A DNA stretch of 32,139 nucleotides from positions 1-32,139 of the forward strand of contig CALMYE010000010.1 of NCBI GenBank assembly GCA_937873425.1. Direction: 5' to 3'. Below are positions 17,280 through 32,054 of this stretch, piece after piece. This DNA is from an uncultured Sphingopyxis sp. GTDB lineage: Bacteria; Pseudomonadota; Alphaproteobacteria; Sphingomonadales; Sphingomonadaceae. Below the pieces are notes generated by a model. That model had not been told where the DNA came from and made no database searches. It was given only the letters and a program-made list of their open reading frames with translations. Both the position numbers and the translations under genes were made by a program. The first letter of the stretch is position 1. Every line of letters starts with the position of its first letter.

Positions 17280-18080
17280 GACCGCGATATCCTTGTTCTT
17301 ATGGTGGAGATAGGTCAGCAGCCCGATCGGGATGCGGCTGCCGCCGTTGACCGGGATCACCGCGCCCGACACCCATGCGGATTCGTCGGACAGCAGATAG
17401 ACCGCGAGCGGCCCGACATCGTCGACCACGCCGAGCCGTTGCAGCGGCACCGTCTCGACCTGCCGCCTGCGGCGCGCGGGGTCGGCCATCGTCTTGGAAT
17501 TTTCGGTCAGCACGACGCCCGGCGCAATTGCGTTGACGCGGATGCCGAGGTGCCCCCATTCGACCGCCGCAGTCGCGGTCAGGCTGTCGACTCCGGCCTT
17601 GGCCGCGCCATAATGGGCGGTCGGCGGACAGGGCTGCGATCCGCTGCGCGACGAGAGATTGACGATGCTGCCCCCGCGCTCAGCCATCGCCTTCGCCGCC
17701 GCCTGCATCGCGAAGAAAGTCCATTTGAGGTTGAGATCGACAACGCGGTCCCACTGCCCCTCGTCGATGCCCAGCATCGGTCCGACATCGCCGGCATTGG
17801 CGCTGCCAGCATTGTTCACCCAGCCGTCGATGGCCCCGAAGCGATGCTGCGCCTTGGCGACGATCTCGTCGATCCCCGCCTGCGACATGATGTCGCCCGG
17901 CACGATCAGATGCGCGGCGCCGAGATCGGCGAGTTCCGCCGCCGTCTCCTCCAGCGGTCCCGGCGTCCGGCCGGTGATGACGAGATTCGCTCCGGCTCTG
18001 GCGCAGGCGCGCGCGATGCCGCGACCGATGCCGCGCCCGCCGCCGGTGATCACGATCGTCTTGCCCGCGAGCGAAAACAT
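17277..18080 (-). CDS. SDR family oxidoreductase
   Basis: A 267-residue classical short-chain dehydrogenase/reductase. It has the Rossmann motif TGGGRGIG (residues 12-19), NNAG, a catalytic Ser in NLSSRSG, and YGAAK with Tyr157 and Lys161, then the VNAIAPG block. SGAVIPVNGGSRI is the usual C-terminal element. The Gly-rich loop and GRTPG after beta-2 suggest NADP(H), but this is uncertain. Classical SDRs interconvert alcohols and ketones. It is the last gene of the leftward operon, 14 bases after the preceding SDR. The tail IGLLTYLHHKNKDIAV is longer than in the neighbours. Confidence 0.92.
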   Translation of the reverse strand: MFSLAGKTIVITGGGRGIGRGIARACARAGANLVITGRTPGPLEETAAELADLGAAHLIVPGDIMSQAGIDEIVAKAQHRFGAIDGWVNNAGSANAGDVGPMLGIDEGQWDRVVDLNLKWTFFAMQAAAKAMAERGGSIVNLSSRSGSQPCPPTAHYGAAKAGVDSLTATAAVEWGHLGIRVNAIAPGVVLTENSKTMADPARRRRQVETVPLQRLGVVDDVGPLAVYLLSDESAWVSGAVIPVNGGSRIPIGLLTYLHHKNKDIAV

Positions 18081-18094
18081 GTCCCCGTCTCCCT

Positions 18095-18835
18095 TCAGGT
18101 GCCGGCGGCACCATCGACCATGACGATCGAACCGTTGACGTAGCTCGCATCGTCGCTCGCCAGATAGGCGATCATGGCCGCGATCTCGTGCGGCTGGGCG
18201 ACGCGCCCCTGCGGGATCGCCGCGACGATCTGGTTCAGATGCGCTTCGGGCAGATCGTCGAGAATCGGTGTCTGCGTCACTCCCGGCGCCACCGCGTTGC
18301 AGCGAATGCCGTCGGCGGCATATTCCTTCGCGGTCTGCCTGGTCAGCATGACCATCCCCGCCTTGGATATACTGTAGGGGCCGACGCGCGGCACGGCGTG
18401 AAAGCCGGCAGGCGAAGCGAGATTGACGATCGCCCCGCCGCCGGCCGCGATCATGCGCGGCAGCGCCGCCTGCGTCAGCGCCAGCGGCGCGCGCAGGTTC
18501 GCGGCCATCACCTTGTCGAAGTCTTCAAGCGCCAGTTCGTGCAGCCGCTGCATGCGCGGACCTCCGATTCCCGCATTGTTGACGAGGATGTCGATGCGCC
18601 CGAACGCGTCGTCCATCGCCGCGAACAGTGCCGCGACGCCCTCTGCGGTCGTGATGTCGGCGGCGCAAACCCGCACCCCCGGCAGGTCCGCCGCCAGCCG
18701 ATCGAGTCCCGCCGCGTCGAGGTCGGCGGCCAGCACCTCCGCCCTCTCCGCGACGAAGCGCCGCACCACCGCGCTGCCGATCCCGCCCGCCGCGCCGGTA
18801 ACCAGCGCCGCCTTGCCTTCCAGCTTTCGGCTCAC
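18095..18835 (-). CDS. SDR family oxidoreductase (GTG start)
   Basis: A 246-residue classical SDR: TGAAGGIG cofactor loop, LAADLDAAG with Asp after beta-2 (favouring NAD(H)), NNAG, a Ser in NLASPAG, YSISK (Tyr/Lys), CNAVAPG. The catalytic serine region reads LASPAG, the Ser being followed by Pro, slightly unusual. The start is GTG at 18833-18835 (VSRKLEGKAAL), overlapping the upstream stop as GTGA; the longer frame upstream is a shadow of the neighbouring gene. Four-base coupling places it in the leftward operon. A 3-hydroxyacyl-CoA dehydrogenase or a cyclic alcohol dehydrogenase role is possible. Confidence 0.9.
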   Translation of the reverse strand: MSRKLEGKAALVTGAAGGIGSAVVRRFVAERAEVLAADLDAAGLDRLAADLPGVRVCAADITTAEGVAALFAAMDDAFGRIDILVNNAGIGGPRMQRLHELALEDFDKVMAANLRAPLALTQAALPRMIAAGGGAIVNLASPAGFHAVPRVGPYSISKAGMVMLTRQTAKEYAADGIRCNAVAPGVTQTPILDDLPEAHLNQIVAAIPQGRVAQPHEIAAMIAYLASDDASYVNGSIVMVDGAAGT

Positions 18836-19617
18836 AGCCGTGAGGCCATCGCATAGCTCGACATGTCGGGGAGCATATGGCCGCCATCGACGACCAGCGC
18901 CTGTCCGGTCACGAACTGCGAGGTCGGCGAACAGAAGAACAGCACGGCATTGGCGATATCGCTCGGCAGGCCGGCGCGCTGCATCGGGATATTCGGCACG
19001 ATCTTGTCGCGCGTCGCATCGTCCATGCGCGGGCTGCGGTCGTCGATGACCAGCCCGGGTTCGATGATGTTCACCGTCGCGCCATGCCTGGCGAATTCGA
19101 GCGCGAGGTTGCGCGCGATGCCGTTCATCCCGCCCTTCGACGCGGCATAGGCATCGAGTCCCGCAAGCCAGGCGTGATTGCCGATCAGCGACGAAATGCC
19201 CACGATCCGCCCGTTGTCGCTGGCCTTGATATGCGGCAGCGCCGCACGGCTCAGCCACATGAAGCTATAGAGGTTGGTGCGCATCACTGCGTCGAATTCC
19301 GCGTCGGCGAGATTTTCGAACGGCGTGAAGGGAAAGATGCCGCTGTTGTGCACGACGATGTCGAGTCCCCCGAACGCATCGGCGGCGGTCTTCACCGCCG
19401 TGTCGCAGGCCTCGCGCGTCGACAGGTCCAGCGCGACCAGTTCGACCTCGCCGCCCATCGCGCGCAGTTCGTCGCGCACCTCGCTCCCGCTCGCCTCGGT
19501 ACGCGTGGCGATGGTCACGCGTGCGCCGTTCTGCACCAGTTGCGTCGCGATGACGCGCCCGATGCCGCGCCCGCCGCCGGTGACGAGCGCATTTTTTCCT
19601 GAAAGATCGACCTTCAT
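18832..19617 (-). CDS. SDR family oxidoreductase
   Basis: A 261-residue classical SDR. TGGGRGIG lies at residues 13-20 and TRTEAS after beta-2 suggests NADP(H). HNSG replaces the usual NNAG. A Ser in GISSLIG and YAASKGG supply the catalytic Ser-Tyr-Lys. TGQALVVDGGHMLPD closes the fold. It starts at 19617 with AGGACAGGAA immediately before the ATG. It overlaps the downstream SDR start by four bases and follows the preceding gene by 11. It is part of the four-SDR run of the leftward operon. Confidence 0.92.
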   Translation of the reverse strand: MKVDLSGKNALVTGGGRGIGRVIATQLVQNGARVTIATRTEASGSEVRDELRAMGGEVELVALDLSTREACDTAVKTAADAFGGLDIVVHNSGIFPFTPFENLADAEFDAVMRTNLYSFMWLSRAALPHIKASDNGRIVGISSLIGNHAWLAGLDAYAASKGGMNGIARNLALEFARHGATVNIIEPGLVIDDRSPRMDDATRDKIVPNIPMQRAGLPSDIANAVLFFCSPTSQFVTGQALVVDGGHMLPDMSSYAMASRL

Positions 19618-19628
19618 TTCCTGTCCTT

Positions 19629-20570
19629 TCACCTGGTCGCCGCGATCGCGGCTTCCGTCCATGTCCACAGCCGCTCGGCCGATGCGGCATCGCGCGCCCA
19701 CGGCTTGACGCCCACGCGCTTGCCCTCTTCGCTCGGCAGCGCCTCGTTGCAGTCTTCCAGATAGAGCCCGCCCGTGCCGTCGAGTTCGCGGCCGAGCGCG
19801 GCCCAGATCGTCGTCGCGCTGCCCTGTTCGACCGTCTTCCATTTATACTGGCTCGCCTGCGCCGGATCGATGCCAAGCCGCTGGCGGATCTCGTCAGTCA
19901 TGTGCCGCCCGAGCGACGTGTGAATACCGCCGGGCATCAGCGAAAAGGCACGAATGCCGTCGTTCCGGCATCGGCGGTCGAGTTCGAGCGCAAACAACGC
20001 ATTCGCCGTTTTCGACCGGCCATAGGCCGCCAGCGGGTCATAGTCGGTGCGCTCGAAATTGGGGTCGTCGAAATCGAAATCGCTCCAGTGATGCCCGCTC
20101 GACGCGACGGCGACGACGCGCGCCCCGCCAGCTGCCTTCAGCGCGGGAAGCAGCAGGCTGGTCAGGTGAAAATGCCCGATGTGATTGACGCCGAGCTGCA
20201 TCTCGAACCCTTGCGCGGTGCGCATCAGCGGACACGCCATGATCCCGGCATTGGCGATCAGCAGATGCAGCGGCGCGCCGTCATAGGCCGCCGCAAAAGC
20301 CTCGACCGAGCGCAGGTCGGCAAGGTCGAGCGCCGCGACCGTCGCCTTGCCGCCCGCCGCGACAATCTCGTCCGCCAGCGCCCCCGCGGCGGCGGGATCG
20401 CGAACTGCCAGGATCACCTCGGCGCCGTGTGATGCGAGCACCCGCGCGGTTTCGACCCCAAGCCCGCTCGTCGCGCCGGTGACGATCGCGCGCTTGCCGG
20501 CCAGGTCGTGGCCGGCGGCGACCTCGGCGGCGGTCGAACTCCATCCGAAGGGGGATGTGATGCGGGTCAT
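19629..20570 (-). CDS. SDR family oxidoreductase, retinol/WW-domain oxidoreductase-like
   Basis: A 313-residue SDR longer than its neighbours. It resembles the retinol dehydrogenase/WWOX-type and protochlorophyllide reductase-like group: FGWSSTAAEVAAGHDLAGKRAIVTGATSGLG, VRD after beta-2 (NADP(H)-favouring), LLIANAGIM, VNHIGHFHLT, VASSGH, YGRSKTANALFALEL. The catalytic Tyr-Lys is in YGRSK. This group usually acts on bulky hydrophobic alcohols or ketones, which fits a terpenoid- or steroid-like substrate, though that is inference. Its ATG overlaps the stop of the thioesterase-like gene (ATGA). Confidence 0.9.
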   Translation of the reverse strand: MTRITSPFGWSSTAAEVAAGHDLAGKRAIVTGATSGLGVETARVLASHGAEVILAVRDPAAAGALADEIVAAGGKATVAALDLADLRSVEAFAAAYDGAPLHLLIANAGIMACPLMRTAQGFEMQLGVNHIGHFHLTSLLLPALKAAGGARVVAVASSGHHWSDFDFDDPNFERTDYDPLAAYGRSKTANALFALELDRRCRNDGIRAFSLMPGGIHTSLGRHMTDEIRQRLGIDPAQASQYKWKTVEQGSATTIWAALGRELDGTGGLYLEDCNEALPSEEGKRVGVKPWARDAASAERLWTWTEAAIAATR

Positions 20571-21358
20571 GGTCTTTGTCTCCTGTCGAGGAAGAGGGTC
20601 TGATGCGCGTGGCCGATCTCGCCCGCCTCGTCGGCGAGCCGGCTGTGGACGATAGCGATACCGTTGCCCGCGCTGCCGGTCTCGGCGGCGATGCGGACCC
20701 ACTCGCCTTCCGGCATGCGGGTCAGGTGCAGGCTGATATCGACATTGGCGAAACTCCATTCGCGCCAGTCGACGAAGCTGGAGGTGCCGCTGCCGAAATC
20801 GGATGCCATCGCGAGCAGCATGAAGGGCGAAATGGGCGTGCCCGGCACGATTTCCCCCGCTATGCGCGCCCAGACGACGCCGGGGCCGCGAACCTCGAGC
20901 CCGCCCGATTCGAGCCGCGTCTCGATGATATGCCGCATCGGCGAGCGGTCGCCGTTCAGGCTCGGCAGGCCCGGCGGCGGCAGCGCGTGGCGGGGCGTCT
21001 CGGTCCCCGGCGATTCGCCGGTCCGCACACGCAGCGCCGAGGCGCGCGCGGTGACCGTTCCGTCCTGCACCAGCTCGACGTCGAGCAGTTGCAGCCGCTT
21101 GCCCTCGCGCACCACCGTCACCTTTGCCGCGACCGGCGCCATCAGCGTCGGCTTCATGATGTCGAGCAGCAGCCGGCTCGTCACCATCGGCGCGGGGCTG
21201 GGCGTGCGTTCGATCTCGTGCGCGATCAGCGCGTTGAGCACGACGCCGCTCTGCAAGCGGCGGTCCCACGGCCCGGTCGCAAGCACGGTCGGCGTATAGA
21301 TGTCACCCTCGCGCTCGAAGATGTGGCGCAGGTCGGGCTCGATGGACAGCGACGCCAT
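20567..21358 (-). CDS. Thioesterase-like (double hotdog) protein
   Basis: A 263-residue protein resembling the TesB-like/thioesterase-superfamily double-hotdog proteins often found with fatty-acyl catabolic genes. ATGPWDRRLQSGVVLNALIAHEIE is the first hotdog helix region, and PTLMAPVAAKVTVVREGKRLQLLDVELVQDG its following strands. The second hotdog contains ARIAGEIVPGTPISPFMLLAMASDFGSG and HLTRMPEGEWVRIAAETG. Family members hydrolyse acyl-CoA thioesters; some bind acyl-CoA without proven catalysis. I cannot confirm the catalytic Asp/Gln/Thr set. It is coupled to both neighbours: one-base overlap upstream and four-base overlap downstream. Confidence 0.8.
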   Translation of the reverse strand: MASLSIEPDLRHIFEREGDIYTPTVLATGPWDRRLQSGVVLNALIAHEIERTPSPAPMVTSRLLLDIMKPTLMAPVAAKVTVVREGKRLQLLDVELVQDGTVTARASALRVRTGESPGTETPRHALPPPGLPSLNGDRSPMRHIIETRLESGGLEVRGPGVVWARIAGEIVPGTPISPFMLLAMASDFGSGTSSFVDWREWSFANVDISLHLTRMPEGEWVRIAAETGSAGNGIAIVHSRLADEAGEIGHAHQTLFLDRRQRP

Positions 21359-22314
21359 CAGCCGGCCTTCCGCGGCGCGTCGGGCCAGGCAAGCGCCGCG
21401 ACGTCCGCCGCCTGCGTCCGGTATCCGCCCATCTCCCCGACCAGCCAGCGCAGGCGAAAGGTCCACAGGTGCAGCGCATGTTCGAGCGTCATGCCGAGCG
21501 CGCCGTTGAACTGGTGCATGTCGTAATTGACCTGCGTGACCGCGCGCTGCGCTTGCAGCGCCGCGAGCGCGGCGTCGAGCGGGCTGCCGCTCCACGCCGC
21601 CTTTATCGCCAGCCAATAGGTGCCGCGGCATTTCTCGGCATCGGCGGCGAGGCGGTGCTGCACCGCCTGGAACGAGCCGACGGGGCGCCCGAACACCTGC
21701 CTTTGCTTGACATAGTCGGTGGTGAAATCGGTCGCCGCCTGCATCGCCGCGGCGATGTCTAGCGCGAGGGCCAACCGCCACAGCCGCCGCAATTCGCCGG
21801 CTTTGCCCGCGCCCAGGCGCCGTGCCGCCGACAGATCGGGCTCCGCCGCGAACTTGCCGATCGGATAGGCATAGACGCCGTCCAGCGGCACCACCTCGTG
21901 CGCACCCATATCCACCACCGCGACATCGTCGCCCAGATCGACGATCAGCGTCCGCGCCTCACTCAGGAAACGCACCCCGCGCGTTAGGTCGGAAAGCCGC
22001 GCGACCGCGACCGGGCGCGACAGCGCCTCGCCTGTCAGCAGCGGCGCGATCAGCACCGACGCCCCCGTCTCCAGCACCAGCGGCGACAGGCCGGCCTCAT
22101 AGACGAGGATCGCGGCTTCCACCGCCCCGCATTCATCCTCCAGCGCGATATCGAAGAAGCCGCCGCCCGCCAGCGCCGCCTCCATCTCCGTCGCGGGATG
22201 AAAGGCGCGCGGCTCGACGACATTGCCGGTGCGCGGCAGGTCGCGATGATCGGCGACGATGCGCTGGATCGCCTCGGCGAGCGCGCGCTGATCGGCGGAG
22301 AAATCGAAATCCAT
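21358..22314 (-). CDS. Acyl-CoA dehydrogenase family protein, short subunit
   Basis: A 318-residue ACAD-fold protein, shorter than the ~380-residue norm. The C-terminal domain has RQVFGRPVGSFQAVQHRLAD, the RxxFGxxxxxFQxxxH segment that contacts FAD of the neighbouring subunit, and HQFNGALGMTLEH. The N-terminal CxGxSEPxxGSD flavin/substrate block is missing. This is the mirror image of its operon partner, which has the block and lacks RxxFG. The pair is best read as an alpha2beta2 heterotetramer like the steroid side-chain FadE/ChsE enzymes. ATG at 22314, preceded by GGGGGAA, is preferred over an in-frame TTG at 22320. Confidence 0.87.
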   Translation of the reverse strand: MDFDFSADQRALAEAIQRIVADHRDLPRTGNVVEPRAFHPATEMEAALAGGGFFDIALEDECGAVEAAILVYEAGLSPLVLETGASVLIAPLLTGEALSRPVAVARLSDLTRGVRFLSEARTLIVDLGDDVAVVDMGAHEVVPLDGVYAYPIGKFAAEPDLSAARRLGAGKAGELRRLWRLALALDIAAAMQAATDFTTDYVKQRQVFGRPVGSFQAVQHRLAADAEKCRGTYWLAIKAAWSGSPLDAALAALQAQRAVTQVNYDMHQFNGALGMTLEHALHLWTFRLRWLVGEMGGYRTQAADVAALAWPDAPRKAG

Positions 22315-22316
22315 CG

Positions 22317-23462
22317 TCAATTCCCCCGCGGCAGGCCGAGGTGGCGGCCCGAGATCATGTTGAGCTGCACCTCCGCCGCGCCCGCCGCGATGCCGGCGGT
22401 GATCGCCGAATTGAACTGCGCGCGCAGATGTCCGTCGGCGCCGTCGACCAGCAAGTCGGGCAGATAGGTGGAGGTCAGGTTCGCGACCGCATGGTCGGCC
22501 TGGATCATCGCCCAGCGCGCGAGATAGGTCTCGGCACCCGGCTCGCTATCCTTGGCGCGCCCGTCGATGACCAGATAGGTTTGCAGGCGCGCCGCCTCGA
22601 CCATCGCCAGCGCCGCCGCGCAATCGGCGCGCACCACCGCATCGTCGAACAGCCCGCGCGCCTTCAGCACATCGACGACATGCGCAAGGCCTCGCGCGGC
22701 CTTTTCATATCGCCCCGCGCCGATCCGCTCATAATGGATGATCGCCTGCACGATCTGCCAGCCATTGCCCTCCTCGCCGAGCAGCGCATCGACGGGCAGC
22801 CGCGCGTCGGTGAAGAAAATCTCGTGGAAATCGTGGCGCGAATGAACGCCGGGGATCGGCCTGATCTCGATGCCCGGCGTGTCCATCGGGACGATGAAGC
22901 AGCTGACCCCGCCCTTGCCCTTGCCGCCTACGCGCGCGAGCAGAAACATGACGTCGGCGCGGGCGGCGTAGCTGGTCCAGATCTTGGTGCCGTTGACGAC
23001 GTAGTCGATGCCGTCGGGTTCGGCGCGCGTCTTCATATTGCCGAGGTCGGTGCCTGCCTCGGGCTCCGAAAAGCCCTGGCACCAGAGCAGCTCGCCCGCC
23101 GCGATCGCCCGAAGCCAGCGCTGCTTCTGCGCCTCGGTTCCGAACTTCATGATGGCCGGGCCTGCCCAGTTGGTGCCGAGATAGAGCGACGAACGCGGCT
23201 CGCCGATCGACCACATCTCCTCGCTGATGATGATCTGCTGCCACGCACTGGCGTCGCAGCCGCCATATTCGGCGGGCCAGTGCCGCACGATCAGGTCGCG
23301 CTCGGCGAGCCGCGCGTTGAAGATGCGGGCGTACTCCATCAGCCTGGGGCTCGACGGACCGTGCGGCGCATATTCGTCCCACCAGTCGTCGGGCAGCGTC
23401 GCCAGCACGGCGCGGAGTTCGGCGCGATACGCCTCCTCCGATTCGGTCCACGCGAATTCCAC
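22317..23462 (-). CDS. Acyl-CoA dehydrogenase family protein, long subunit (GTG start)
   Basis: A 381-residue ACAD with WCQGFSEPEAGTDL near residue 125 and YVVNGTKIWTSYA, the flavin- and substrate-binding core. Glu245 in HYERIG sits where isovaleryl-CoA dehydrogenase carries its catalytic base, and no Glu is found at the MCAD-type position near the C-terminus (AAEVQLNMISGRHLGLPRG). The RxxFGxxIxxFQ segment is absent, supporting pairing with the short subunit encoded two bases downstream. It introduces an alpha,beta double bond into an acyl-CoA. The GTG start has AGAGGAATC before it. It is the first gene of the leftward operon, with promoter and dyad just upstream. Confidence 0.92.
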   Translation of the reverse strand: MEFAWTESEEAYRAELRAVLATLPDDWWDEYAPHGPSSPRLMEYARIFNARLAERDLIVRHWPAEYGGCDASAWQQIIISEEMWSIGEPRSSLYLGTNWAGPAIMKFGTEAQKQRWLRAIAAGELLWCQGFSEPEAGTDLGNMKTRAEPDGIDYVVNGTKIWTSYAARADVMFLLARVGGKGKGGVSCFIVPMDTPGIEIRPIPGVHSRHDFHEIFFTDARLPVDALLGEEGNGWQIVQAIIHYERIGAGRYEKAARGLAHVVDVLKARGLFDDAVVRADCAAALAMVEAARLQTYLVIDGRAKDSEPGAETYLARWAMIQADHAVANLTSTYLPDLLVDGADGHLRAQFNSAITAGIAAGAAEVQLNMISGRHLGLPRGN

Positions 23463-23478
23463 GATTCCTCTCCTCGTT

Positions 23479-23496
23479 TAATTGGTATACTTATTC
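23479..23496. promoter_or_regulatory. Candidate operator 1 of the GntR/FCD regulator
   Basis: An 18-bp imperfect dyad, TAATTGGTA|TACTTATTC, lies in the 95-base gap between the leftward dehydrogenase operon and the regulator gene. Six of nine positions are symmetric. Its half-site TAATTGGTA recurs as TAACTGGTA before the rightward operon. TGGTATAC matches five of six fixed positions of the FadR/FCD-type pattern TnGTnnACnA. It covers the -10 of the leftward promoter, as expected for a repressor site. Confidence 0.6.
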
Positions 23497-23515
23497 AACG
23501 CACGCGCCTTGTCAA
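23488..23515 (-). promoter_or_regulatory. Predicted promoter of the leftward catabolic operon
   Basis: On the minus strand a perfect -35, TTGACA (23510-23515), is followed after 16-17 bp by TAAGTAT (about 23487-23493) as a weak -10. Transcription would start near 23480, leaving a leader of about 18 bases that includes the ribosome site before the GTG at 23462. The candidate operator overlaps the -10. Confidence 0.5.
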
Positions 23516-23557
23516 ACGCGGCGAAAGGCACGAAGGATCGGAAAGGCAGATCAGGGC

Positions 23558-24733
23558 ATGAGTCGTCCGGGGGGCATTTTGGCGATAACGGGCGCGAACA
23601 AGCGCAGGCGGAAGCTGGGCGAGGTGGTCGCCGAACGGATCATCGACGAGATCGTCCAGCGCGGCTGGAAGGAAGGCGAGGTGCTGGGCACCGAGGCCGA
23701 TTTCATGGAGCGCTTCCGTATCTCGCGCGCGACGTTCCGCGAGGCGGTGCGCCAGCTCGAATGGCATGGCGCAGCCGGCATGCGGCGCGGCGTCTATGGC
23801 GGGCTGGTGGTCAAGGCGCCGCCGCGCCATGCGATCGTCTATGCCGTCAAGACATATTTCGAGCTGACTAAGGTCGACCGCGCGCTGCTCGACCGGACCG
23901 CCGAAGTCCTGCGCAATGCGCCGCGGCTGCGCCCCGACACCGGCGACAACGAGGCGATCGGCCTGTTCCTCGAGGCGCTCGATCACCGGACGATCAGCGA
24001 CCTTGCCGAGGAACGCATGGTCGCCGGAACGACCCCGAAGCTCAGCGAGACGATCGCGCTGCAACTGGTGCAGGACATCGAGAATGCCGGTTTCGAACCC
24101 GGCGCCAACCTGGGCAACGAAGCCGAGCTTCAGCAGCGCTACGGCGTCAGCCGCGCGGTGCTGCGCGAGGCGCTGCGACCGCTGGAGCTGCACGAGATCG
24201 TCCGGGTCAAGACCGGTGCGCGCGGCGGCGTCATCATCCGCCAGTGCGACCCGGCCTATACGGTCGAGCTGACCGCCACTTACCTCGCCTATTCGCGCAT
24301 TCCGCTGTCGCACCTGTGGGAAGCGCAGAGCTGCCTCGAAATCGTGGCGATCGAGGATTTCACGCGCCGCGCCGACGCGGCGTCGCTCGCGGCGTTGCGC
24401 AAGGCCTTCGCCCGACTCGAAAAGGCATCGGCGGGCCATTATCTGGCGGCGGCATGCGAGTTCCACCAGATCATCGCCGACCTCAGCGGCAACCGCGCGC
24501 TCGCGCTGTTCGTCGACGTGGCGCTCCGCTACGGCCTGACCGCGCTCCCCCGCCCCGACGAGGCCTTCCTGCCGCAGCTCAAGGACCTCCACCGCGAGAT
24601 GATCGACACCGTCGAGGCGGGCGACGTCGCGGCGGCGATGGCGCTGATGCGCGCGATGTTCGATCATTCGCGCCGCTGGATCGCGCGGCTCGAACGCGAC
24701 CGCGAACGGCGCGCGGCCGAGTGGTCAGACTGA
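23558..24733 (+). CDS. GntR-family regulator with two winged helices and an FCD domain
   Basis: A 391-residue regulator, about 1.6 times the usual GntR/FCD length. The first GntR winged helix spans residues 19-86 (LGTEADFMERFRISRATFREAVRQLE) and the second 161-228 (LGNEAELQQRYGVSRAVLREALRPLE); the two are clearly similar. An FCD effector domain follows (about 240-380) with EFHQII, LHREM and FDHSRR supplying probable metal-binding His residues. Between the helices, residues 87-160 contain a stretch (NEAIGLFLEAL) resembling the NRALALFVDVAL near the FCD end, as if a first FCD domain had been mostly deleted. FadR-type regulators usually repress until an acyl-CoA or organic acid binds. It sits between two operons bearing matching dyads. 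It is convergent with the EthD-like gene, overlapping it by nine bases. Confidence 0.93.
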   Translation: MSRPGGILAITGANKRRRKLGEVVAERIIDEIVQRGWKEGEVLGTEADFMERFRISRATFREAVRQLEWHGAAGMRRGVYGGLVVKAPPRHAIVYAVKTYFELTKVDRALLDRTAEVLRNAPRLRPDTGDNEAIGLFLEALDHRTISDLAEERMVAGTTPKLSETIALQLVQDIENAGFEPGANLGNEAELQQRYGVSRAVLREALRPLELHEIVRVKTGARGGVIIRQCDPAYTVELTATYLAYSRIPLSHLWEAQSCLEIVAIEDFTRRADAASLAALRKAFARLEKASAGHYLAAACEFHQIIADLSGNRALALFVDVALRYGLTALPRPDEAFLPQLKDLHREMIDTVEAGDVAAAMALMRAMFDHSRRWIARLERDRERRAAEWSD

Positions 24734-24735
24734 CC
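24723..24735. repeat. Short dyad across overlapping convergent gene ends
   Basis: GGTCA-GAC-TGACC, a 5-bp inverted repeat with a three-base loop. The arms contain the facing TGA stops of the regulator and the EthD-like gene, whose reading frames overlap by nine bases. There is no T-tract. Three pairs are given by the stop codons themselves. Confidence 0.3.
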
Positions 24736-25417
24736 CGAAGCAAATGCCGTCGGCGGCATAGGGCGCCGCCGCGATGCCCGAGGTGTCGAGCGCCGGCGAA
24801 AGGAACATGCGCTCGGTCCCGGCCCGCGCCTTGAGTTCGGCGAACGCCGCCTCCGCGTCGCTCGCCAGCACTTCGTAGAGCGCGAGATAGCGAAAGGGAT
24901 AGGGCTTCAGCGCCGGATGATCGACCAGCCGGAAGCGCTGCGCCGCGACGAACCCGGGCACCGCGAGCACATCGGGAATATGGGTGTTCGTATACCAGTC
25001 GTTGAATTCATCGTGATCGCCCGGCGTGGCATTGGTGAGCACGATATAGAGCAGCCGGTCCTTGCCCTCCGCATCTGGCGCTACCTTGGACCGGACGCGA
25101 TCCGTCAGCGCCTCGCCGATCGTCATCATCGTCGATTCGCGGTCGAGCGTGTCGCTCATCGTCCATTCGCCGCTGCCCGCCCGGCGGAAAACCTCGTTGA
25201 GGACCGCAGCCGGATCGCCGTTCAGCCAATAGGCGGCGGCATTGGTCCAGCGCAGCCCCTCCGGCCTGTCCGTGACGCTCGTATATTCGCCGCGCAGCAC
25301 GCCGGGAACCGCGCACACGTCGGGCAGATGATGCGTCAGATACCAGTCGCGATGATCGTCGGCACGTCCTTCCACCGGGTTCTGCATCACCAGCAGGATC
25401 GCGTTCGCATCGGCCAT
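24725..25417 (-). CDS. EthD-like tandem dimeric alpha+beta-barrel protein
   Basis: A 230-residue protein built of two similar halves. HRDWYLTHHLPDVCAVPGV (residues ~22-40) is repeated as FNDWYTNTHIPDVLAVPGF (~138-156), each preceded by a hydrophobic strand (AILLVMQNP, LLYIVLTNA). The pattern WYxxxHxPDVxAVPG is typical of EthD/DUF4286-type ferredoxin-like domains, so the gene encodes a fused dimer. EthD-like proteins are common in sphingomonad and actinobacterial catabolic clusters; some are lyases or monooxygenase-like, and many are unassigned. The paired His residues of WYxxxH could be functional. It has its own predicted promoter, facing away from the crotonase operon. Confidence 0.85.
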   Translation of the reverse strand: MADANAILLVMQNPVEGRADDHRDWYLTHHLPDVCAVPGVLRGEYTSVTDRPEGLRWTNAAAYWLNGDPAAVLNEVFRRAGSGEWTMSDTLDRESTMMTIGEALTDRVRSKVAPDAEGKDRLLYIVLTNATPGDHDEFNDWYTNTHIPDVLAVPGFVAAQRFRLVDHPALKPYPFRYLALYEVLASDAEAAFAELKARAGTERMFLSPALDTSGIAAAPYAADGICFGSV

Positions 25418-25443
25418 CGTCTCTCTCCCTGTTCGTGCGATTG

Positions 25444-25472
25444 TCTAAAATGGGCTTGCCGCAAAGCGTCAA
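25444..25472 (-). promoter_or_regulatory. Predicted promoter of the EthD-like gene
   Basis: The minus strand reads TTGACG (25467-25472), a 17-bp spacer and TTTAGA (25444-25449), 27 bases before the start codon at 25417. The -35 is good and the -10 matches three of six. The candidate operator 2 lies just upstream of this -35. Confidence 0.4.
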
Positions 25473-25482
25473 TGGATGCAAG

Positions 25483-25500
25483 TAAAGGGTATACCAGTTA
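25483..25500. promoter_or_regulatory. Candidate operator 2 of the GntR/FCD regulator
   Basis: An 18-bp dyad, TAAAGGGTA|TACCAGTTA, with seven of nine symmetric positions and a perfect GGTATACC core (25488-25495). The right half read on the minus strand is TAACTGGTA, differing at one base from the TAATTGGTA of operator 1. It ends directly before the GAAGGA ribosome site of the crotonase gene, so a bound protein would cover the start region of the rightward operon. Confidence 0.6.
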
Positions 25501-25512
25501 GAAGGATTGAGG

Positions 25513-26313
25513 ATGTCATCGCGCTATTCGGGCTATACGGCCCTGTCGATCGCACAGGACGGCCATGTCCTGACGATCACCCTCGACAACCCTCCGCTCA
25601 ACGGCATGACGCCGGAGGCGCATGAGGAACTGACACGCGTCTGGGCCGACGCCGGAAGCGACACGGGCGTGCGGGTGATCGTCTTCACCGGCGCGGGCGA
25701 ACGCGGCTTCTGCGCCGGCGGCGATCCGAAGAAGATGATCGACAATTGGGGCAATCGCGAACGCTGGCACGTCGGCATCTTCGAGGCGCGGGCGATCATC
25801 GTCGCCATGCTCGAATGCCCGAAACCGGTGATCGCGCGGATCAACGGCCATGCGATGGGCATGGGGGCGAGCCTGGCGCTCGCCGCCGACATCACCATCG
25901 CGGTCGAGGATGCGCTGATCGGCGACCCGCATGTCAGCGTCGGCCTCGCCGCGGGCGACGGCGGCGCGCTGCTGTGGCCGAACCTGATCGGGCTGGTCGA
26001 GGCGCGGCGCCACCTGCTGTCGGGCGAGCCGCTGCGCGGCAGGGAAGCGGCGGCGAAGGGACTGGTCACCGAATCGGCGACGCGCGAGGAACTCGACGGC
26101 GCGGTGAAGAAATGGGTCGACACCTTCCTCTCCAAATCGCCGAGCGCGCTGCAGACGACCAAGCAGGCGCTCAACCTCGACATCCTCGACAAGGCGCGGC
26201 GCCACATGGGCGAGATGCTGCGGCTCGAAACGAAAAGCTGGGAATCGCCCAACCACCGCGAGGCGGTGCAGGCGATGATCGACAAGCGCCCGCCCGATTT
26301 CATCGACGAATGA
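25513..26313 (+). CDS. Crotonase (enoyl-CoA hydratase/isomerase) family protein, atypical active site
   Basis: A 266-residue crotonase-fold protein. The oxyanion-hole elements FCAGGDPKK and GHAMGMGAS are present. A gap-free alignment to rat mitochondrial hydratase over the core shows that both catalytic glutamates are replaced: Glu144 by Ser120 and Glu164 by His140 (in DPH). Asp149 occurs in the following AAGDGG loop. It is therefore unlikely to be an ordinary hydratase; isomerisation, hydrolysis or C-C bond cleavage are alternatives known in the superfamily. GAAGGA at 25501-25506 fixes the ATG at 25513. It opens the rightward operon; the next gene begins 18 bases downstream. Confidence 0.9.
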   Translation: MSSRYSGYTALSIAQDGHVLTITLDNPPLNGMTPEAHEELTRVWADAGSDTGVRVIVFTGAGERGFCAGGDPKKMIDNWGNRERWHVGIFEARAIIVAMLECPKPVIARINGHAMGMGASLALAADITIAVEDALIGDPHVSVGLAAGDGGALLWPNLIGLVEARRHLLSGEPLRGREAAAKGLVTESATREELDGAVKKWVDTFLSKSPSALQTTKQALNLDILDKARRHMGEMLRLETKSWESPNHREAVQAMIDKRPPDFIDE

Positions 26314-26331: not shown

Positions 26332-27405
26332 ATGTCTGACGAACTCGACCTCGGCGTGCTCGCCGGGAGCTTTGCCGAAATGCTCGGCGCCGAATGGCCG
26401 CGCGAAAAGGCGATCGCCTGGTCGCAGGCGCCCGAAGGTTTTGCCGCGCCGCTGTGGAACCAGATGGCCGAACTCGGCTGGACCGCGCTGACCGTGCCCG
26501 AAGATCATGGCGGGCTGGGACTCGGCACCGAAGCGGCGGCGGCACTCCACGCGGCGCTCGGCGCGGCGGCGGCGCCCGTGCCCATGCTCGGCACGACGCT
26601 CGCGACCACGCTCGTCGCCGCGGCGGGCAACGACGCGCAAAAAGCGGACCTTCTCCCGCGCCTCGCCGACGGTTCGCTCCGCGCGGCGGTCGCACAGCCG
26701 GGCGATGCGGTAGCGGCGATAGCGGGCGGCACGGCGAACGCGACCATAGCCGATATGGTCGACTCTCCATCGGCGACGACCCTGTTCCTGCGCGCGAGCC
26801 GCGACGGCGCCTCCTGCTGGCTCGTCCTACCAGCCGAGGCTCCGGGCGTCTCGGTCGCGGACACGGCGCTGACCGACGCGACGCGCACACTCGGCACCGT
26901 CACGCTCGACGGCGTGGCCGTCGACGACAGCGCCGTCCTCGTGCCGGAGGACGCCGCCGCGATCGACGATCACCTGCTGCGCACCGCCGCCATCGCTATC
27001 GCCGCCGACGCGATCGGCGGCGGCGAAGCCGCGCTCGCCGGGACGATCGACTATCTGAAGGTGCGCGAGCAGTTCGGCCGCGTCATCGGCTCCTTCCAGG
27101 CCCTGAAGCACCGCATCGCCGACCATCAGGCGGCGCTGGTCGCCGCGCGCGGGCTGGTCGAACATGCTGCGAGCCTTCCCGCCGGCCATCCACACGCCCT
27201 GCTCGACGCACTGTCGGCGAAGCAGCATGTGACCCGCACCGTCGCCGAGATCGCCCGCGACTGCATCCAGCTCCACGGCGGCGTCGGCTTTACCGCCGAA
27301 TTCTTCCCGCACATCTATCTCAAGCGCGGCAAGCTGAACGAGGCCCTGTGGGGCACGCGCAACCGGCTGCTCGACCGGATCGCCGACATGCTGGAGGCCG
27401 CGTGA
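26332..27405 (+). CDS. Acyl-CoA dehydrogenase family protein, short subunit
   Basis: A 357-residue ACAD-fold protein. GWTALTVPEDHGGLGLG marks the N-terminal helical domain. The C-terminal domain has REQFGRVIGSFQALKHRIAD and QLHGGVGFTAE, the segments that clasp the partner's FAD. The CxGxSEPxxGSD block of the middle domain is absent (AVAQPGDAVAAIAGG in its place) and the YEG catalytic motif is missing. It complements the next gene, which has what this one lacks. Their reading frames are coupled (TGATG). The pair probably forms a heterotetramer. Confidence 0.9.
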   Translation: MSDELDLGVLAGSFAEMLGAEWPREKAIAWSQAPEGFAAPLWNQMAELGWTALTVPEDHGGLGLGTEAAAALHAALGAAAAPVPMLGTTLATTLVAAAGNDAQKADLLPRLADGSLRAAVAQPGDAVAAIAGGTANATIADMVDSPSATTLFLRASRDGASCWLVLPAEAPGVSVADTALTDATRTLGTVTLDGVAVDDSAVLVPEDAAAIDDHLLRTAAIAIAADAIGGGEAALAGTIDYLKVREQFGRVIGSFQALKHRIADHQAALVAARGLVEHAASLPAGHPHALLDALSAKQHVTRTVAEIARDCIQLHGGVGFTAEFFPHIYLKRGKLNEALWGTRNRLLDRIADMLEAA

Positions 27406-28607
27406 TGACCCGGACGTTCGATATCATCTCCAAGGTCGGCGACGAGTCCGCCTTCCGCCGCGAAATCCGCGACTGGCTCGCCGCCACCGTTCCCGCCGAC
27501 TGGCGCCGGACGTGGCAGGCGGTGCGCGATTCCGACCTCAAGGCCATCGTCGTCGACTGGCTTGAGGAGCGCCGCAAGGTCGGTCTGGCGACGCCGCACT
27601 GGCCGCGCGAATGGGGCGGCCCCGGCATCCCCTTCGCCTATCAGATCATCGTCTATGAAGAGTTCGCCCGCGCCGACGCGCCCGAACTCGACATGTACAC
27701 CATCTCGCTGTTCCACACCCCCGCGACCCTGTTCGAGCATGGCACGCAGGAACAGAAGGACCGCTATCTCGGCGGCATCACCCACGGCACCGACATCTGG
27801 TGCCAGGGCTTTTCGGAGCCCGGCGCCGGCTCCGACCTCGCCGCGCTGCGCACCAGCGCGCGCCGCGAGGGCGACCATTATGTCGTCAACGGACAGAAGA
27901 TCTGGTCGTCGGCGGCGATGCACGCCGATTATTGCCTGCTGCTCGCGCGCACCGACCCCAACGGACCGCGCAAGCATGACGGCATCTCCTATTTCATCAT
28001 GGACATGAAGTCGCCGGGGGTCGAGGTGCGCCCGATCCGCCAGATCACCGGCGAGGCCGAATTCGCCGAAATCTTCCTCGACGATGTGAAGATACCCGCC
28101 GCGAATCTGATCGGCGCCGAGGGCAATGGCTGGAACATCGCGCAATCGACGCTGTCGACCGAGCGCGGCCTGCTGATCTTCGGCGCGGTCGAACGGCTCG
28201 CCCATTCCTTCGAGCTCGACCGCCGGGCGGCGACGGACGGCTGGATGCGCGACGTGCAGCTGCGCCGCGAATATGCCGCCTTCCATGCCGAGCTCCAGTC
28301 GCTGCGCCTGATGATCCGCCAGTTGCTGATCGAGCTCGAAGCCAATCCCGACAAGGCGTCGCCGACGCTGCCGACCTATATCAAGCTGATCTGGGGTCCC
28401 TTCCTTCAGCGCTACACCGAATTCCTGCTCCGCGCCGAAGGCATCGACGCGCTGAAATGGCAGCCGTCGATTCCCGGCACCGGACACAGCAGCCGCCTGC
28501 GTATGAACGATTTCCTGAAAAGCTATGGCTGGACGATCGCGGGCGGGTCGAACGAGATCATGCGCAATATCATTTCGGAGCGCATTCTCGGCCTGCCGCG
28601 CGGCTGA
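27405..28607 (+). CDS. Acyl-CoA dehydrogenase family protein, long subunit
   Basis: A 400-residue ACAD with WCQGFSEPGAGSDLAALRT and YVVNGQKIWSS, the flavin/substrate core. Glu253 in STERG occupies the isovaleryl-CoA-dehydrogenase-type base position. The C-terminal GGSNEIMRNIISERILGLPRG lacks the Glu of the medium-chain YEGTSQ motif. No RxxFGxxIxxFQ is present, so a partner must supply that part. It introduces an alpha,beta double bond, passing electrons to ETF. ATG at 27405 overlaps the preceding stop by one base. It is a likely partner of the 26332 gene product and a paralogue of the pair at 21358-23462. Confidence 0.93.
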   Translation: MTRTFDIISKVGDESAFRREIRDWLAATVPADWRRTWQAVRDSDLKAIVVDWLEERRKVGLATPHWPREWGGPGIPFAYQIIVYEEFARADAPELDMYTISLFHTPATLFEHGTQEQKDRYLGGITHGTDIWCQGFSEPGAGSDLAALRTSARREGDHYVVNGQKIWSSAAMHADYCLLLARTDPNGPRKHDGISYFIMDMKSPGVEVRPIRQITGEAEFAEIFLDDVKIPAANLIGAEGNGWNIAQSTLSTERGLLIFGAVERLAHSFELDRRAATDGWMRDVQLRREYAAFHAELQSLRLMIRQLLIELEANPDKASPTLPTYIKLIWGPFLQRYTEFLLRAEGIDALKWQPSIPGTGHSSRLRMNDFLKSYGWTIAGGSNEIMRNIISERILGLPRG

Positions 28608-28628
28608 CCCGGGACAGGAAGGGACGAA

Positions 28629-30071
28629 ATGACCGATTCCGCTGCAACCCTGGATATGCCGTCCGATCGGCCGAAATCGTCGATCTGGCGCCTCGTGCTC
28701 CCGCTGATGGTGGCGGAGATCGTCGGCTCGCTCGAACTGACGATGATCTATGCCGCGATGCGCAGCCTGATATCCGATTTCGGCAGCGCATCGGCGGCGG
28801 GCTGGCTGATCACGTCCTTCATGCTCTCCTCGGCGGCGGGCGCGGCACTGTTCGGGCGGCTCGGCGACCTGCTCGGCCGGCGCCGCATCCTGCTCGCCGT
28901 CCTGATCATCTCGACCATCGGATCGGTGCTCAGTGCGGTGACCCGCGATCTCGGCTGGCTGATCGTCGGACGCGCGATGCAGGGCGCCGCGGGAGCGATC
29001 GTGCCGCTGTGCTTCGGCATCGTGCGCGAACATGCCGACCCCAGGCAGGTGCCGTTCGGCATCAGCCTGCTCGCGGTGGCGGCCAGCCTGTCTTCGGCGA
29101 CCGGGCTGGTCATCGGCGGCGCGATCATCGACCTCGCCGACTGGTCGATGATCTTCAAGGTCACGGCGGCAATGGGGGCGATCGCGGTCGTCTGCATCGC
29201 CGTCTTCGTGCAGCGCGACCGCGCGTGGAACCCGGGCGCCGTGCGCGACGACCTGCTCGGCGGATTGCTGTTCATCCCGGCCGCCATCGGCCTGTTGCTC
29301 GCGATCGACAATATGGGGCGTTCGGGGTGGTCCGACCCGATGACGCTTGTCTATATCGCGGTCGCGGTGATCTCGCTCGTCGCGTGGGTGTGGCGCGAAC
29401 TCAGCGTGCCCAATCCGCTGCTCCAGGTGCGGCTGCTCGCAAGACCGGAAATCGGCTGGGCGAACGCCTGCTATGTCGCGCTTGCGCTCGGCGCCTTCCA
29501 GGGCGGACAGATCATGGCGCTGTTCGGGCAGCAACTGCCCGAAACCGGCGCCGGGCTCGGTCTGTCGGCGACGGCGGCAGGCTTCCTGCTGCTGCCGGCC
29601 AATATCATCACCGCGATGAGCTATCCCTTCGTCGCGCGCCTCGTCGAACGCCACGGCCCGCGACTGATCGGATCGATCGGCTTTCTGCTGATCATCATCG
29701 GCTTCGGGTCGCTGATCCTGTGGAACGACGGTGCCGCGCTGGTGATGACGCTGCTCGTCATCCAGTCGATCGGCCTCGGCATCGTCTATGTGACACTGCA
29801 GATCGTGATCGTCAGCGCTGCGCCCGCCGACCGGGTCAGCGAGGCGACCGGCATGATGACCGTCATCCGCGCGACGGCGATGGCGATCGGTGCGCAGACG
29901 GTCGCGACCCTGCTGTCCGGCGGCGGACATCATGGCGGCGGGGCCGTGCGCTTCCCGGCGCAAGCCGACTATATCACCGTCTTCCTCTTCGTCTGCGGCA
30001 CCGGACTCGCCGGCGTGCTGCTCGCACGCATGCTGCCGCGACGGCTCGCGGCGATCGTCCAGACGCATTGA
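28629..30071 (+). CDS. MFS transporter, DHA2-like (about 14 membrane segments)
   Basis: A 480-residue polytopic membrane protein. After a 20-residue cytoplasmic tail the sequence runs through repeated hydrophobic helices; the length and pattern fit the 14-segment DHA2 branch. GRLGDLLGRRRILL (about residues 76-89) is the MFS motif A between helices 2 and 3. GRAMQGAAGAIVPLCFGI corresponds to motif C-like or helix-4 sequences. DHA2 proteins are mostly proton-driven exporters. In this catabolic operon it could import the substrate or export an inhibitory intermediate; sequence alone does not decide. It lies 21 bases after the dehydrogenase gene. Confidence 0.9.
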   Translation: MTDSAATLDMPSDRPKSSIWRLVLPLMVAEIVGSLELTMIYAAMRSLISDFGSASAAGWLITSFMLSSAAGAALFGRLGDLLGRRRILLAVLIISTIGSVLSAVTRDLGWLIVGRAMQGAAGAIVPLCFGIVREHADPRQVPFGISLLAVAASLSSATGLVIGGAIIDLADWSMIFKVTAAMGAIAVVCIAVFVQRDRAWNPGAVRDDLLGGLLFIPAAIGLLLAIDNMGRSGWSDPMTLVYIAVAVISLVAWVWRELSVPNPLLQVRLLARPEIGWANACYVALALGAFQGGQIMALFGQQLPETGAGLGLSATAAGFLLLPANIITAMSYPFVARLVERHGPRLIGSIGFLLIIIGFGSLILWNDGAALVMTLLVIQSIGLGIVYVTLQIVIVSAAPADRVSEATGMMTVIRATAMAIGAQTVATLLSGGGHHGGGAVRFPAQADYITVFLFVCGTGLAGVLLARMLPRRLAAIVQTH

Positions 30072-30082
30072 AAGGGCCATTG

Positions 30083-31240
30083 ATGGACGAACGCATCGCC
30101 CCCCTCTTCTCCCCCTTCGCGCTGCGCTCGCTGACCCTCGCGAACCGCATCGTCATGGCGCCGATGACGCGCGGCTTTTCGCCGCGGGGCGTGCCGGGCG
30201 CCGATGTCGCCGCCTATTATGCGCGCCGCGCCGACACCGGCCTGATCCTGACCGAGGGCGTCGGCGTCGATCATCCCGCCGCGCTCGGCGGCAGCGGGGT
30301 CGACGGCGACAATGCGCCGCACATGTATGGCAAGGCCGCGCTGGAGGGCTGGCGCGCGGTCGTCGATGCCGTCCATGCGGCGGGCGGCGTCATCATGCCG
30401 CAGCTCTGGCACCAGGGCGTGATGCGCGAAATGGGTACCGGCCCCCACCCCGAGGTCGAATCGGTGCGCCCCTCGGGCATCTGGGGTCCGCTGGACAGGA
30501 CCGCTATGGTGTCGCCCGCCTATATGGAGGCGGTGGCCGCCAAACCCGGCCGCGCGATGACCGACAGCGAGGTCGCCGATGTCATCGAGGGCTTCGCGCG
30601 CAGCGCGCGCTGGGCGATGGAGGTCGGTTTCGACGGCATCGCGATCCACGGCGCGCACGGCTATATGGTCGACAATTTCCTGTGGGACGGCACCAACCGG
30701 CGCACCGACCGCTGGGGCGGCGATCACAGGGGACGCACCGCCTTCGCGGCCGAACTGGTGCGCGCGGTGCGCCGCGAGATCGGGCCGGAGCCGGTCATCA
30801 ACTTCCGCTTTTCGCAATGGAAGCAACAGGATGTCCGGGCGCGCCTCGCCGATACGCCCCAACAACTGGAAGAAATCCTGGGTCCAATCGCCGACGCCGG
30901 GGTCGATATCTTCGACGGCAGCCAGCGCTATTTCGACAAGGCCGAATTTGAAGGATCGCCGCTGAACCTCGCCGGCTGGGCGAAGAAACTGACCGGCAAG
31001 GCGTCGCAGACCGTCGGCGGCGTCGGGCTCAGTTCGGGCGTCTATGATTCGAAAAAGACCGGCGGCTCCGGCGCGGCGCTCGAAAATGTCCACAAGGTCG
31101 CCGAGCGGCTGGCCCGCGGCGAATTCGACCTCGTCGGCGTCGGCCGCGCGATCATGCACGACCCGCACTGGACGCGCCGCATCCGCGAGGGCCAGGAACT
31201 GCTGCCCTTCGATGAAGGATCGCGCCGCGTCCTCACCTGA
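30083..31240 (+). CDS. Old Yellow Enzyme family NADH:flavin oxidoreductase
   Basis: A 385-residue FMN-binding TIM-barrel ene-reductase. LFSPFALRSLTLANRIVMAPMTRG is the classic N-terminus. Catalytic His189/His192 lie in IHGAHGYMVDNFLW, and TNRRTDRWGG and VGVGRAIMHDP bind FMN phosphate. It lacks the Fe-S and second flavin domains of 2,4-dienoyl-CoA reductases, so it is the single-domain type, reducing activated C=C bonds of enones or dienoyl compounds with NAD(P)H. In the operon it could saturate a ring double bond. It starts 11 bases after the transporter gene. Confidence 0.93.
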   Translation: MDERIAPLFSPFALRSLTLANRIVMAPMTRGFSPRGVPGADVAAYYARRADTGLILTEGVGVDHPAALGGSGVDGDNAPHMYGKAALEGWRAVVDAVHAAGGVIMPQLWHQGVMREMGTGPHPEVESVRPSGIWGPLDRTAMVSPAYMEAVAAKPGRAMTDSEVADVIEGFARSARWAMEVGFDGIAIHGAHGYMVDNFLWDGTNRRTDRWGGDHRGRTAFAAELVRAVRREIGPEPVINFRFSQWKQQDVRARLADTPQQLEEILGPIADAGVDIFDGSQRYFDKAEFEGSPLNLAGWAKKLTGKASQTVGGVGLSSGVYDSKKTGGSGAALENVHKVAERLARGEFDLVGVGRAIMHDPHWTRRIREGQELLPFDEGSRRVLT

Positions 31241-31262
31241 CGGAGCAACGAAAGGGAGAGGC

Positions 31263-32054
31263 ATGGCAGGAGCATTGCAAGGGCGCACGGCGATCGTCAC
31301 CGGCGCCGGGCGCGGGATCGGGCGCGGCATCGCGGTCGAACTGGCGCGCGAAGGCGCCCAAGTCGTCGTCGCCTCGCGGTCGCAGGGCAGCATCGACGAT
31401 ACGCTGGCCGAGATCGCCGGCATCGGCGGCACCGCGATCGGCACCGTCCGCGACGTCGGCAATCGCGACCATATCGCGGCGACCGTAGCCGGCGCGGTCG
31501 AACGCTTCGGCGGCCTCGACATCATCGTCAACAATGCGCAGAGCTTCGGCACCGCCGAGCAGCCCGCGCCGACGCCGGTCATCACGCCGCTGGAGGACTT
31601 CAACGACGGCGAGTGGGACCGCACCTTCGCAACCGGCCCGACCGCGACCTACCATTTCATGAAGGCCGCCTTCCCGCATCTCAAGGCATCGGGTGCCGGG
31701 CGCATCATCAACTTCGGCTCCTATTGGGGGCAGGTCGGCTATGAGGGGTCGGCCGCATACAACGCCGCCAAGGAAGCGATCCGTGGCCTGACCCGCACCG
31801 CCGCGCGCGAATGGGGAAAATATGGCATCACCGCGAACGTCATCAATCCGGCGATCGCCTCCGATGCGCTCAAGAGCTTCATCGCCAACCAGCCCGAACA
31901 TGCGCGAAAGGCGATGGAGACGATCCCGATGCGCCGCTATGGCGACATCTATGCCGACGGCGGGCGCCTCGCGGTGTTTCTCGCCGGCGACGATGCCAGC
32001 TTCCTGACCGGCATGACCTTTCAGGCCGATGGCGGCCTGTTCATGGCACCGTGA
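31263..32054 (+). CDS. SDR family oxidoreductase
   Basis: A 263-residue classical SDR: TGAGRGIG (residues 14-21), ASRSQGS after beta-2 (NADP(H)-favouring), NNAQ in place of NNAG, a Ser in NFGSYWG and YNAAK. LTGMTFQADGGLFMAP closes the fold. An insert of about eight residues (AEQPAPTPVITPLED) enlarges the substrate loop after NNAQ. AAAGGGAGAG precedes the ATG. The TGA overlaps the next gene's GTG start by four bases. Confidence 0.92.
   Translation: MAGALQGRTAIVTGAGRGIGRGIAVELAREGAQVVVASRSQGSIDDTLAEIAGIGGTAIGTVRDVGNRDHIAATVAGAVERFGGLDIIVNNAQSFGTAEQPAPTPVITPLEDFNDGEWDRTFATGPTATYHFMKAAFPHLKASGAGRIINFGSYWGQVGYEGSAAYNAAKEAIRGLTRTAAREWGKYGITANVINPAIASDALKSFIANQPEHARKAMETIPMRRYGDIYADGGRLAVFLAGDDASFLTGMTFQADGGLFMAP

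Follow-up and report, generated by a model that had tools for sequence, protein, structure and literature searches.

Two dyads flanking a GntR/FCD-type regulator gene

The window analyzed here, a 32,139-nucleotide stretch of an uncultured Sphingopyxis sp. (contig CALMYE010000010.1), contains a gene for a GntR/FCD-type regulator (391 aa; 23558–24733, plus strand) with a dyad sequence in the gap on either side of it. Candidate operator A (TAATTGGTATACTTATTC; 23479–23496, plus strand) lies in the divergent gap between the regulator gene and a leftward run of genes, the first of which encodes an acyl-coenzyme A (CoA) dehydrogenase (ACAD) with a GTG start (22317–23462, minus strand; Pfam Acyl-CoA_dh_M, 4.2e-22). 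Candidate operator B (TAACTGGTATACCCTTTA; 25483–25500, minus strand) lies in the divergent gap between a gene for an EthD-like/DUF4286 protein (230 aa; 24725–25417, minus strand; Pfam DUF4286, 9.7e-08, with EthD at 0.00047 just under its cut-off, 21.7 of 22 bits) and the first gene of a rightward run, which encodes an enoyl-CoA hydratase/isomerase (ECH; 25513–26313, plus strand; Pfam ECH_1, 4.5e-44). Both dyads were found where a preliminary description of this DNA had placed them. That description assigned one operon to each gap; each site does adjoin a structural run, but both gaps are divergent, so that four transcription units adjoin the two sites, namely the leftward ACAD run and the regulator gene at A, and the EthD-like gene and the rightward ECH run at B.

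Counted by eye, 6 of 9 symmetric pairs are complementary in dyad A and 7 of 9 in dyad B, and a repeat search scored both as palindromes (81% complementary with 16-nt arms and 82% with 11-nt arms, respectively). Site A is separated by 16 bases from the GTG start of the first leftward gene, and site B by 12 bases from the start of the ECH gene, whose Shine-Dalgarno sequence it directly precedes; both sites read GTATACCARTTA along the direction of their structural run. The 12-mer TAAYTGGTATAC has just two exact copies in the source genome (G000; 4,344,726 bases in 337 contigs, 92% complete), at 23479–23490 (plus strand) and 25489–25500 (minus strand), both flanking the regulator gene; the many unrelated copies that would have spoken against a regulon were not seen. 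A scan of the window for TAAYTGGTATAC with up to 3 mismatches gave 7 matches, compared with 3.06 +/- 1.98 in shuffled sequences, of which 6 in 100 reached 7. The degenerate pattern is thus only weakly above chance in the window, with A and B as its sole exact matches. The earlier statement that the window has no third non-coding copy holds at up to 2 mismatches, apart from 25483–25494, which is the other arm of dyad B. The best match after the two dyads, CGACTGGTATAC at 24990–25001, falls within the EthD-like gene, and the relative L016 has GTGTAC at this position.

Distribution and conservation of the sites

Among 80 genomes of the genus, the source genome included, the regulator was found in five (the source genome and four others, at 77–94% identity) and the exact 12-mer in six: two copies in each of the five carriers, all ten of them adjoining the regulator gene, and one stray copy in G216, which does not have the regulator. 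A reversed-pattern control gave 26 scattered matches, summed over the same genomes. The lone copy in G216 (TAATTGGTATAC, at about 1501–1512 of L027) is followed by a gene whose product, from its sequence, we take to be anhydromuramic-acid-kinase-like. Among named genomes, those of Sphingopyxis panaciterrulae and Sphingopyxis sp. PET50 carry close copies of the locus. In 397 genomes drawn from the family, regulator matches with E ≤ 1e-35 were detected in the source genome and in G417 (54% identity) only, the latter being, by contig position, the same record as locus L017.

The same five of the 80 genomes were the only ones with an ACAD match of 91% or more or an ECH match of 85% or more, indicating that a genome has either the whole cluster or none of it. 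With E ≤ 1e-60, ECH was matched in 12 of the 80 genomes (beyond the five, G153 at 66% identity and six others at 42–48%), and with E ≤ 1e-110, ACAD was matched in six, the sixth being G203 (50%). No GGTATA or TATACC was found before the ECH gene of G153, the neighbours of which differ; as one regulator-free genome, it provides too few cases for a test. Given this all-or-none distribution, the co-occurrence of sites and regulator is partly linkage, and the conservation of the sites relative to their surroundings is the better argument. In five-genome alignments, 11 of the 12 columns of the site A 12-mer are invariant, versus 47 of 103 outside it in the alignment, and all 12 columns of the site B 12-mer (GTATACCAGTTA) are invariant, versus 37 of 98 elsewhere. 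At site A, TTAAYTGGTATACTTATTC has 18 of its 19 columns invariant. Phylogenetic footprinting in relatives, which the preliminary description had proposed, points to the dyads: in the alignment of each gap, the only 12-column windows without any variable column fall there (at B reaching one column beyond).

It is very improbable that the dyads belong to a regulator encoded elsewhere and that the flanked gene is a bystander. The source genome does contain nine other GntR-type matches, some of which could recognize a TGGTATACCA-like site, but the 12-mer tracks this regulator in all five genomes, is nearly absent without it, and has no further exact copy in the source genome.

The conserved elements could also be read as core promoters and not operators, with TGGTATACT/TGGTATACC serving as extended -10 elements for the regulator and EthD-like genes. 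The direction of TGGTATAC, which points to the regulator gene at A and to the EthD-like gene at B, would fit this, as would the hexamer TATACT at 23486–23491, which is preceded by TGG as in an extended -10 and to which the earlier statement that the first dyad covers a -10 would apply. Yet a promoter scan of 23300–25700 revealed no sigma-70-type promoter, conservation at A continues beyond a -10 (TTAAYTGG on one side and TATTC on the other), the 12-mer, with a single copy across the 75 other genomes of the genus, is unlike a housekeeping promoter element, and L017 does not have the TGG yet keeps GTATACCTATTC. We consider the core-promoter reading unlikely, but operator and -10 may overlap.

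Each gap holds a second conserved block as well. That in gap A (23509–23518, minus strand), which reads TTGTCAAACG on the plus strand and TTGACA on the minus strand, is invariant in the five genomes and present in L017, and is a possible -35 of the leftward run. The block in gap B (25455–25482, plus strand; 28 bases, CTTGCC...GATGCAAG) forms a near-palindrome in relatives, and each of the five genomes has one copy of it at up to 3 mismatches; its arms are 86% complementary in L016 and its inner CGAACCGCGGTTCG is perfect in G165 and G210, with the inner part degraded in the source genome. A -35 element is a plain guess for both blocks, that in gap B being conceivable as a -35 region or as another operator.

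Several observations weigh against the operator reading. The sites were inherited with the cluster, which makes co-occurrence not independent of linkage, and five genomes from one genus are a small sample. In L017, where the regulator is 54–55% identical to that of the window and the locus has no ECH or EthD-like gene between the regulator gene and the right arm, site A reads CAATCCGTATACCTATTC; just its GTATACYTATTC part is kept, and no second site was found in the gap after the regulator gene. Moreover, the second conserved block of each gap means that the sites are not the sole constrained sequence there, and TGGTATAC resembles an extended -10, too. Taking these points into account, we regard it as very likely, from the comparative evidence, that A and B are operators of the flanked regulator, a FadR/FCD-type protein with two winged helix-turn-helix (wHTH) domains, and that they control the four adjoining units. 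Co-occurrence and conservation in the five genomes lend strong support to the two-operator local regulon of a GntR/FCD regulator proposed earlier, and comparative genomics with that number of genomes can take the case for this putative regulon no further.

Further members were sought in the five genomes at one mismatch to the 12-mer. Ten of the 17 matches (60 in the reversed-pattern control) are the exact sites; the other seven were not counted as members, three being codons of a phenylalanine-4-hydroxylase-like gene (G000, G173 and G207) and three lying in other coding frames, as judged by eye, while the seventh (TAATTAGTATAC, in G173) appears from translated frames, also by eye, to be in a gap, with an AMP-ligase-like gene following. 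Three of the relatives carry, about 8 kb to the right of site B, a further GTATAC dyad (ATCAGTATACTATTTAA), a candidate third operator that does not match the 12-mer: G173 (L038:18610–18631), G210 (L040:18964–18985) and G165 (L039:826–847, opposite strand). The G173 copy stands before an FMN oxidoreductase gene (assigned by Pfam), in a gap that appears divergent (left gene by eye), with two P450 genes further on. The dyad is absent from the G207 stretches examined, and the contig of the window ends before its position. The regulon may have a third site beyond this contig.

Regulator architecture and possible binding modes

The regulator had been taken for an ordinary GntR/FCD protein, but its chain has two winged-helix domains: wHTH1 (residues ~20–85), a shortened FCD-like linker (~90–155), wHTH2 (~162–227) and a full FCD domain (~232–390). 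Pfam detected two GntR stretches (PF00392; 8e-20, 70.7 bits versus a cut-off of 27) and one FCD stretch (PF07729; 2.8e-14, 54 bits versus 24.3), and residues 19–106 and 161–248 form an internal repeat (32% identity, E 3e-15). The AlphaFold2 model (mean predicted local distance difference test score 81.8, predicted template-modelling (TM) score 0.78), built from four sequences only, shows two winged helices, a four-helix segment at 90–155 and seven helices from residue 232. Among the Foldseek matches shown, all were GntR-type regulators and mostly known FCD proteins, with NanR first (E 1.8e-07); query-normalized TM-scores were low (0.25–0.41), as expected with about half of the chain aligned. 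Of the DNA-contact residues named for FadR (Glu34, Arg45, Thr46, Arg49 and wing Gly66; PMC7797058), four of the five were found by eye in both wHTH domains, Thr46 being replaced by Ala in both. The chain does not comprise two complete GntR-FCD units, as its first unit has about 70 residues forming four helices after the wHTH. An Asp shortly before FH in two aligned PDB FCD proteins, presumably a metal-site residue of the FCD domain, is Ala in the window regulator. From its architecture, the regulator looks like a fused GntR-FCD pair with a shrunken first FCD.

Known sites of the FadR subfamily are palindromic and rich in A/T, carry TKGT/ACMA boxes and have 2 or 3 nt separating GT from AC, UxuR being listed with 2 nt (PMC4494728). 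The window system resembles this subfamily in its GntR wHTH and FCD domains, its TKGT/ACMA-type site with UxuR spacing and the location of that site in a divergent gap beside the regulator's own gene (PMC4494728). It differs in having two wHTH domains per chain instead of one, and in the asymmetry of its sites, which is found at A in five genomes and is less marked at B; the second arm of A, TTATTC, is not the mirror of TAAYTGG. The score against the NCBIfam model of UxuR, 48.2 bits, is below the cut-off of 442. Escherichia coli NanR shares the FCD fold, provides the best PDB fold match and the best NCBIfam match for the second half of the protein, and the site contains a GGTATA core; but the NCBIfam score of the window regulator reaches 103.7 of the 260 bits required, and NanR has one wHTH per chain. 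The sites also differ, NanR being an FCD protein that binds direct repeats, TGGTATAW (PMC4494728).

Two GntR stretches per chain were detected by Pfam in the plasmid proteins L097, L099 and L101 from Rhodococcus and Streptomyces (the start of L101 being set upstream of the annotated one), with two FCD stretches in L099 and one each in L097 and L101; a Streptomyces relative is GntR-FCD-GntR-FCD. The two halves align at 33% in L097 and 38% in L099. Like the window regulator, L097 and L099 have ACAD and short-chain dehydrogenase/reductase (SDR) neighbours, and two of the three genes have a GTATAC gap element; unlike it, L097 and L099 are 477 and 490 aa long, compared with 391, and identity to the window protein is about 28–52% by segment. 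An open-access literature search disclosed no description of a double-GntR or fused GntR-FCD regulator, most papers being judged by title or the start of the abstract, so that an in-text mention is possible. In Mycobacterium branderi (L102:3950–5581), two GntR-type regulator genes, separate from one another, are arranged head to tail at the place taken in L097 and L099 by a single double gene.

GTATAC occurs in the gap adjoining a double-GntR gene in the window, in L017 (whose two GntR domains were identified from alignment), beside a paralog on contig C205 of the source genome, and in L097 and L099. It lies ~35–40 bases before the regulator gene in L097 and before the next ACAD gene in L099, these being the sole copies in 8.4 and 8.7 kb. 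No GTATAC was found in the adjacent gap of L101 (which has GTGTAC), nor of the more distant L098 and L103, L098 being GntR as a whole by Pfam with no single stretch under 1e-4. Similarly, the adjoining gaps of L095, L096, L100, L102 and L104, whose regulator genes are of single-GntR length (L095 was scanned with Pfam), contain none, L100 and L102 each having one inside coding frames. As this comparison was chosen after the first cases had been seen, the association of GTATAC with double-GntR genes is a lead.

Of the nine other GntR-type matches in the source genome, eight cover one part of the regulator and one, that on contig C205 (L006:1414–2406), spans both GntR domains, with no FCD detected by Pfam. 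The C205 gene is followed by a GTATAC dyad and then by a gene without a Pfam match at 1e-4. The gap sequence, GGTATACTGATTCAACGC (minus strand), matches 17 of 18 positions of the right side of site A (GGTATACTTATTCAACGC). Allowing at most one mismatch, GTATACYTATTC was matched 7 times in the genome, A and the C205 site included, compared with 6 times for the control.

Site A has the same asymmetric form, TAAYTGG-TATAC-TTATTC, in each of the five genomes: the core and the arm TAAYTGG fit the FadR-subfamily consensus, and the opposite arm is kept as TTATTC. Site B is looser in that arm, which, counted from the final C of GTATAC, reads CCCTTTAC in the source genome, CTATTAC in G207, CCTATTC in G165, CCATATTC in G173 and CCATATC in G210. 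Both L017 and the C205 site keep the TATTC side, with the TAAYTGG half changed, and wHTH1 is more conserved than wHTH2 in both proteins (75% versus 66% in L017, 53% versus 41% in the C205 paralog). These two comparisons suggest the hypothesis that wHTH1 may read the TATTC side, and the asymmetry of site A, for a regulator with two wHTH domains, may change the binding mode. In the GntR group concerned, two subunits may have been fused and their winged helices have diverged, so that one chain would read an asymmetric, directional operator, wHTH1 the TATTC and wHTH2 the TAAYTGG half. We propose this tentatively and think it rather unlikely, giving it less weight because GTATACYTATTC is exact at site B in G165 only (one of five genomes) and site B is close to symmetric (TGGTATACCA) in G173 and G210.

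The same counts at B would suit an ordinary FCD homodimer that binds through one pair of wHTH domains to dyads that are degenerate palindromes, a mode compatible with A and B being operators. The other pair would be idle or would occupy a second operator, in which case a single dimer could bridge A and B, looping 2.0 kb of DNA. HTH proteins of the GntR family generally bind two-fold symmetric sites as dimers (PMC4494728), and Atu1419 is tetrameric and loops DNA between two sites (PMC7797058). This VanR-type FCD protein is comparable to the window system in its four DNA-binding heads per assembly, two operators and catabolic cluster, but differs in consisting of four separate chains and in its symmetric recognized sequence, ATGTATACAT (PMC7797058). 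The distance between A and B is 2006–2021 bp in the five genomes, although this spacing is largely set by the lengths of the regulator and EthD-like genes and so argues only slightly for looping. Site A, with an asymmetry that does not vary among the five genomes and a right side that recurs beside the C205 paralog, speaks against a homodimer mode, to which we assign somewhat less than an even chance.

Neighbouring genes and proposed control

The leftward run continues with a second, partner ACAD-like gene (21358–22320, minus strand; Pfam Acyl-CoA_dh_1, 1.3e-12), and its remainder (17277–21364, minus strand) comprises a 4HBT_3-type thioesterase gene (~20570–21364, by Pfam) and four SDR-type frames with approximate starts, three assigned by NCBIfam and the fourth (within 18095–19258) by reading its sequence only. 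Adjoining this run are genes for an APH-type phosphotransferase (16237–17265) and a phytanoyl-CoA dioxygenase-like protein (14256–15239), near which no copy of the 12-mer was found at up to 2 mismatches. In the rightward run, the ECH ATG at 25513 aligns with GTG in relatives, and the rest (26332–32054, plus strand) encodes two ACADs, a major facilitator superfamily (MFS) transporter, an FMN oxidoreductase-like frame (ending at 31240; assigned from the list of open reading frames alone) and an SDR. The contig ends at the end of the window. The ACADs match the PimC/PimD and IpdE2 models far below their cut-offs only.

From these data we infer binding, repression, autoregulation, a CoA-type inducer and the organization of the gene runs as operons. 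The regulator would bind one site in each of the two divergent gaps and thereby control the leftward ACAD/thioesterase/SDR run, its own gene, the EthD-like gene and the rightward ECH/ACAD/MFS run. Repression is the most likely mode, as both sites abut the ribosome-binding site of a structural run, which would place the promoter or transcription start at or just upstream of the site. The regulator would be released when its FCD domain binds an intermediate of the pathway, either an acid or the corresponding CoA thioester.

These findings describe a compact putative regulon, consisting of one regulator and two unique candidate operators, for an uncharacterized acyl-CoA-type catabolic cluster present in 5 of 80 genomes of the genus. 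If the reading in which a single chain recognizes both arms is true, the protein would be a natural fused GntR regulator of two specificities, offering a route to how a symmetric dimer becomes asymmetric, and GTATAC with unequal arms would be a motif with which to find targets of double-headed regulators in Rhodococcus, Streptomyces and sphingomonads.

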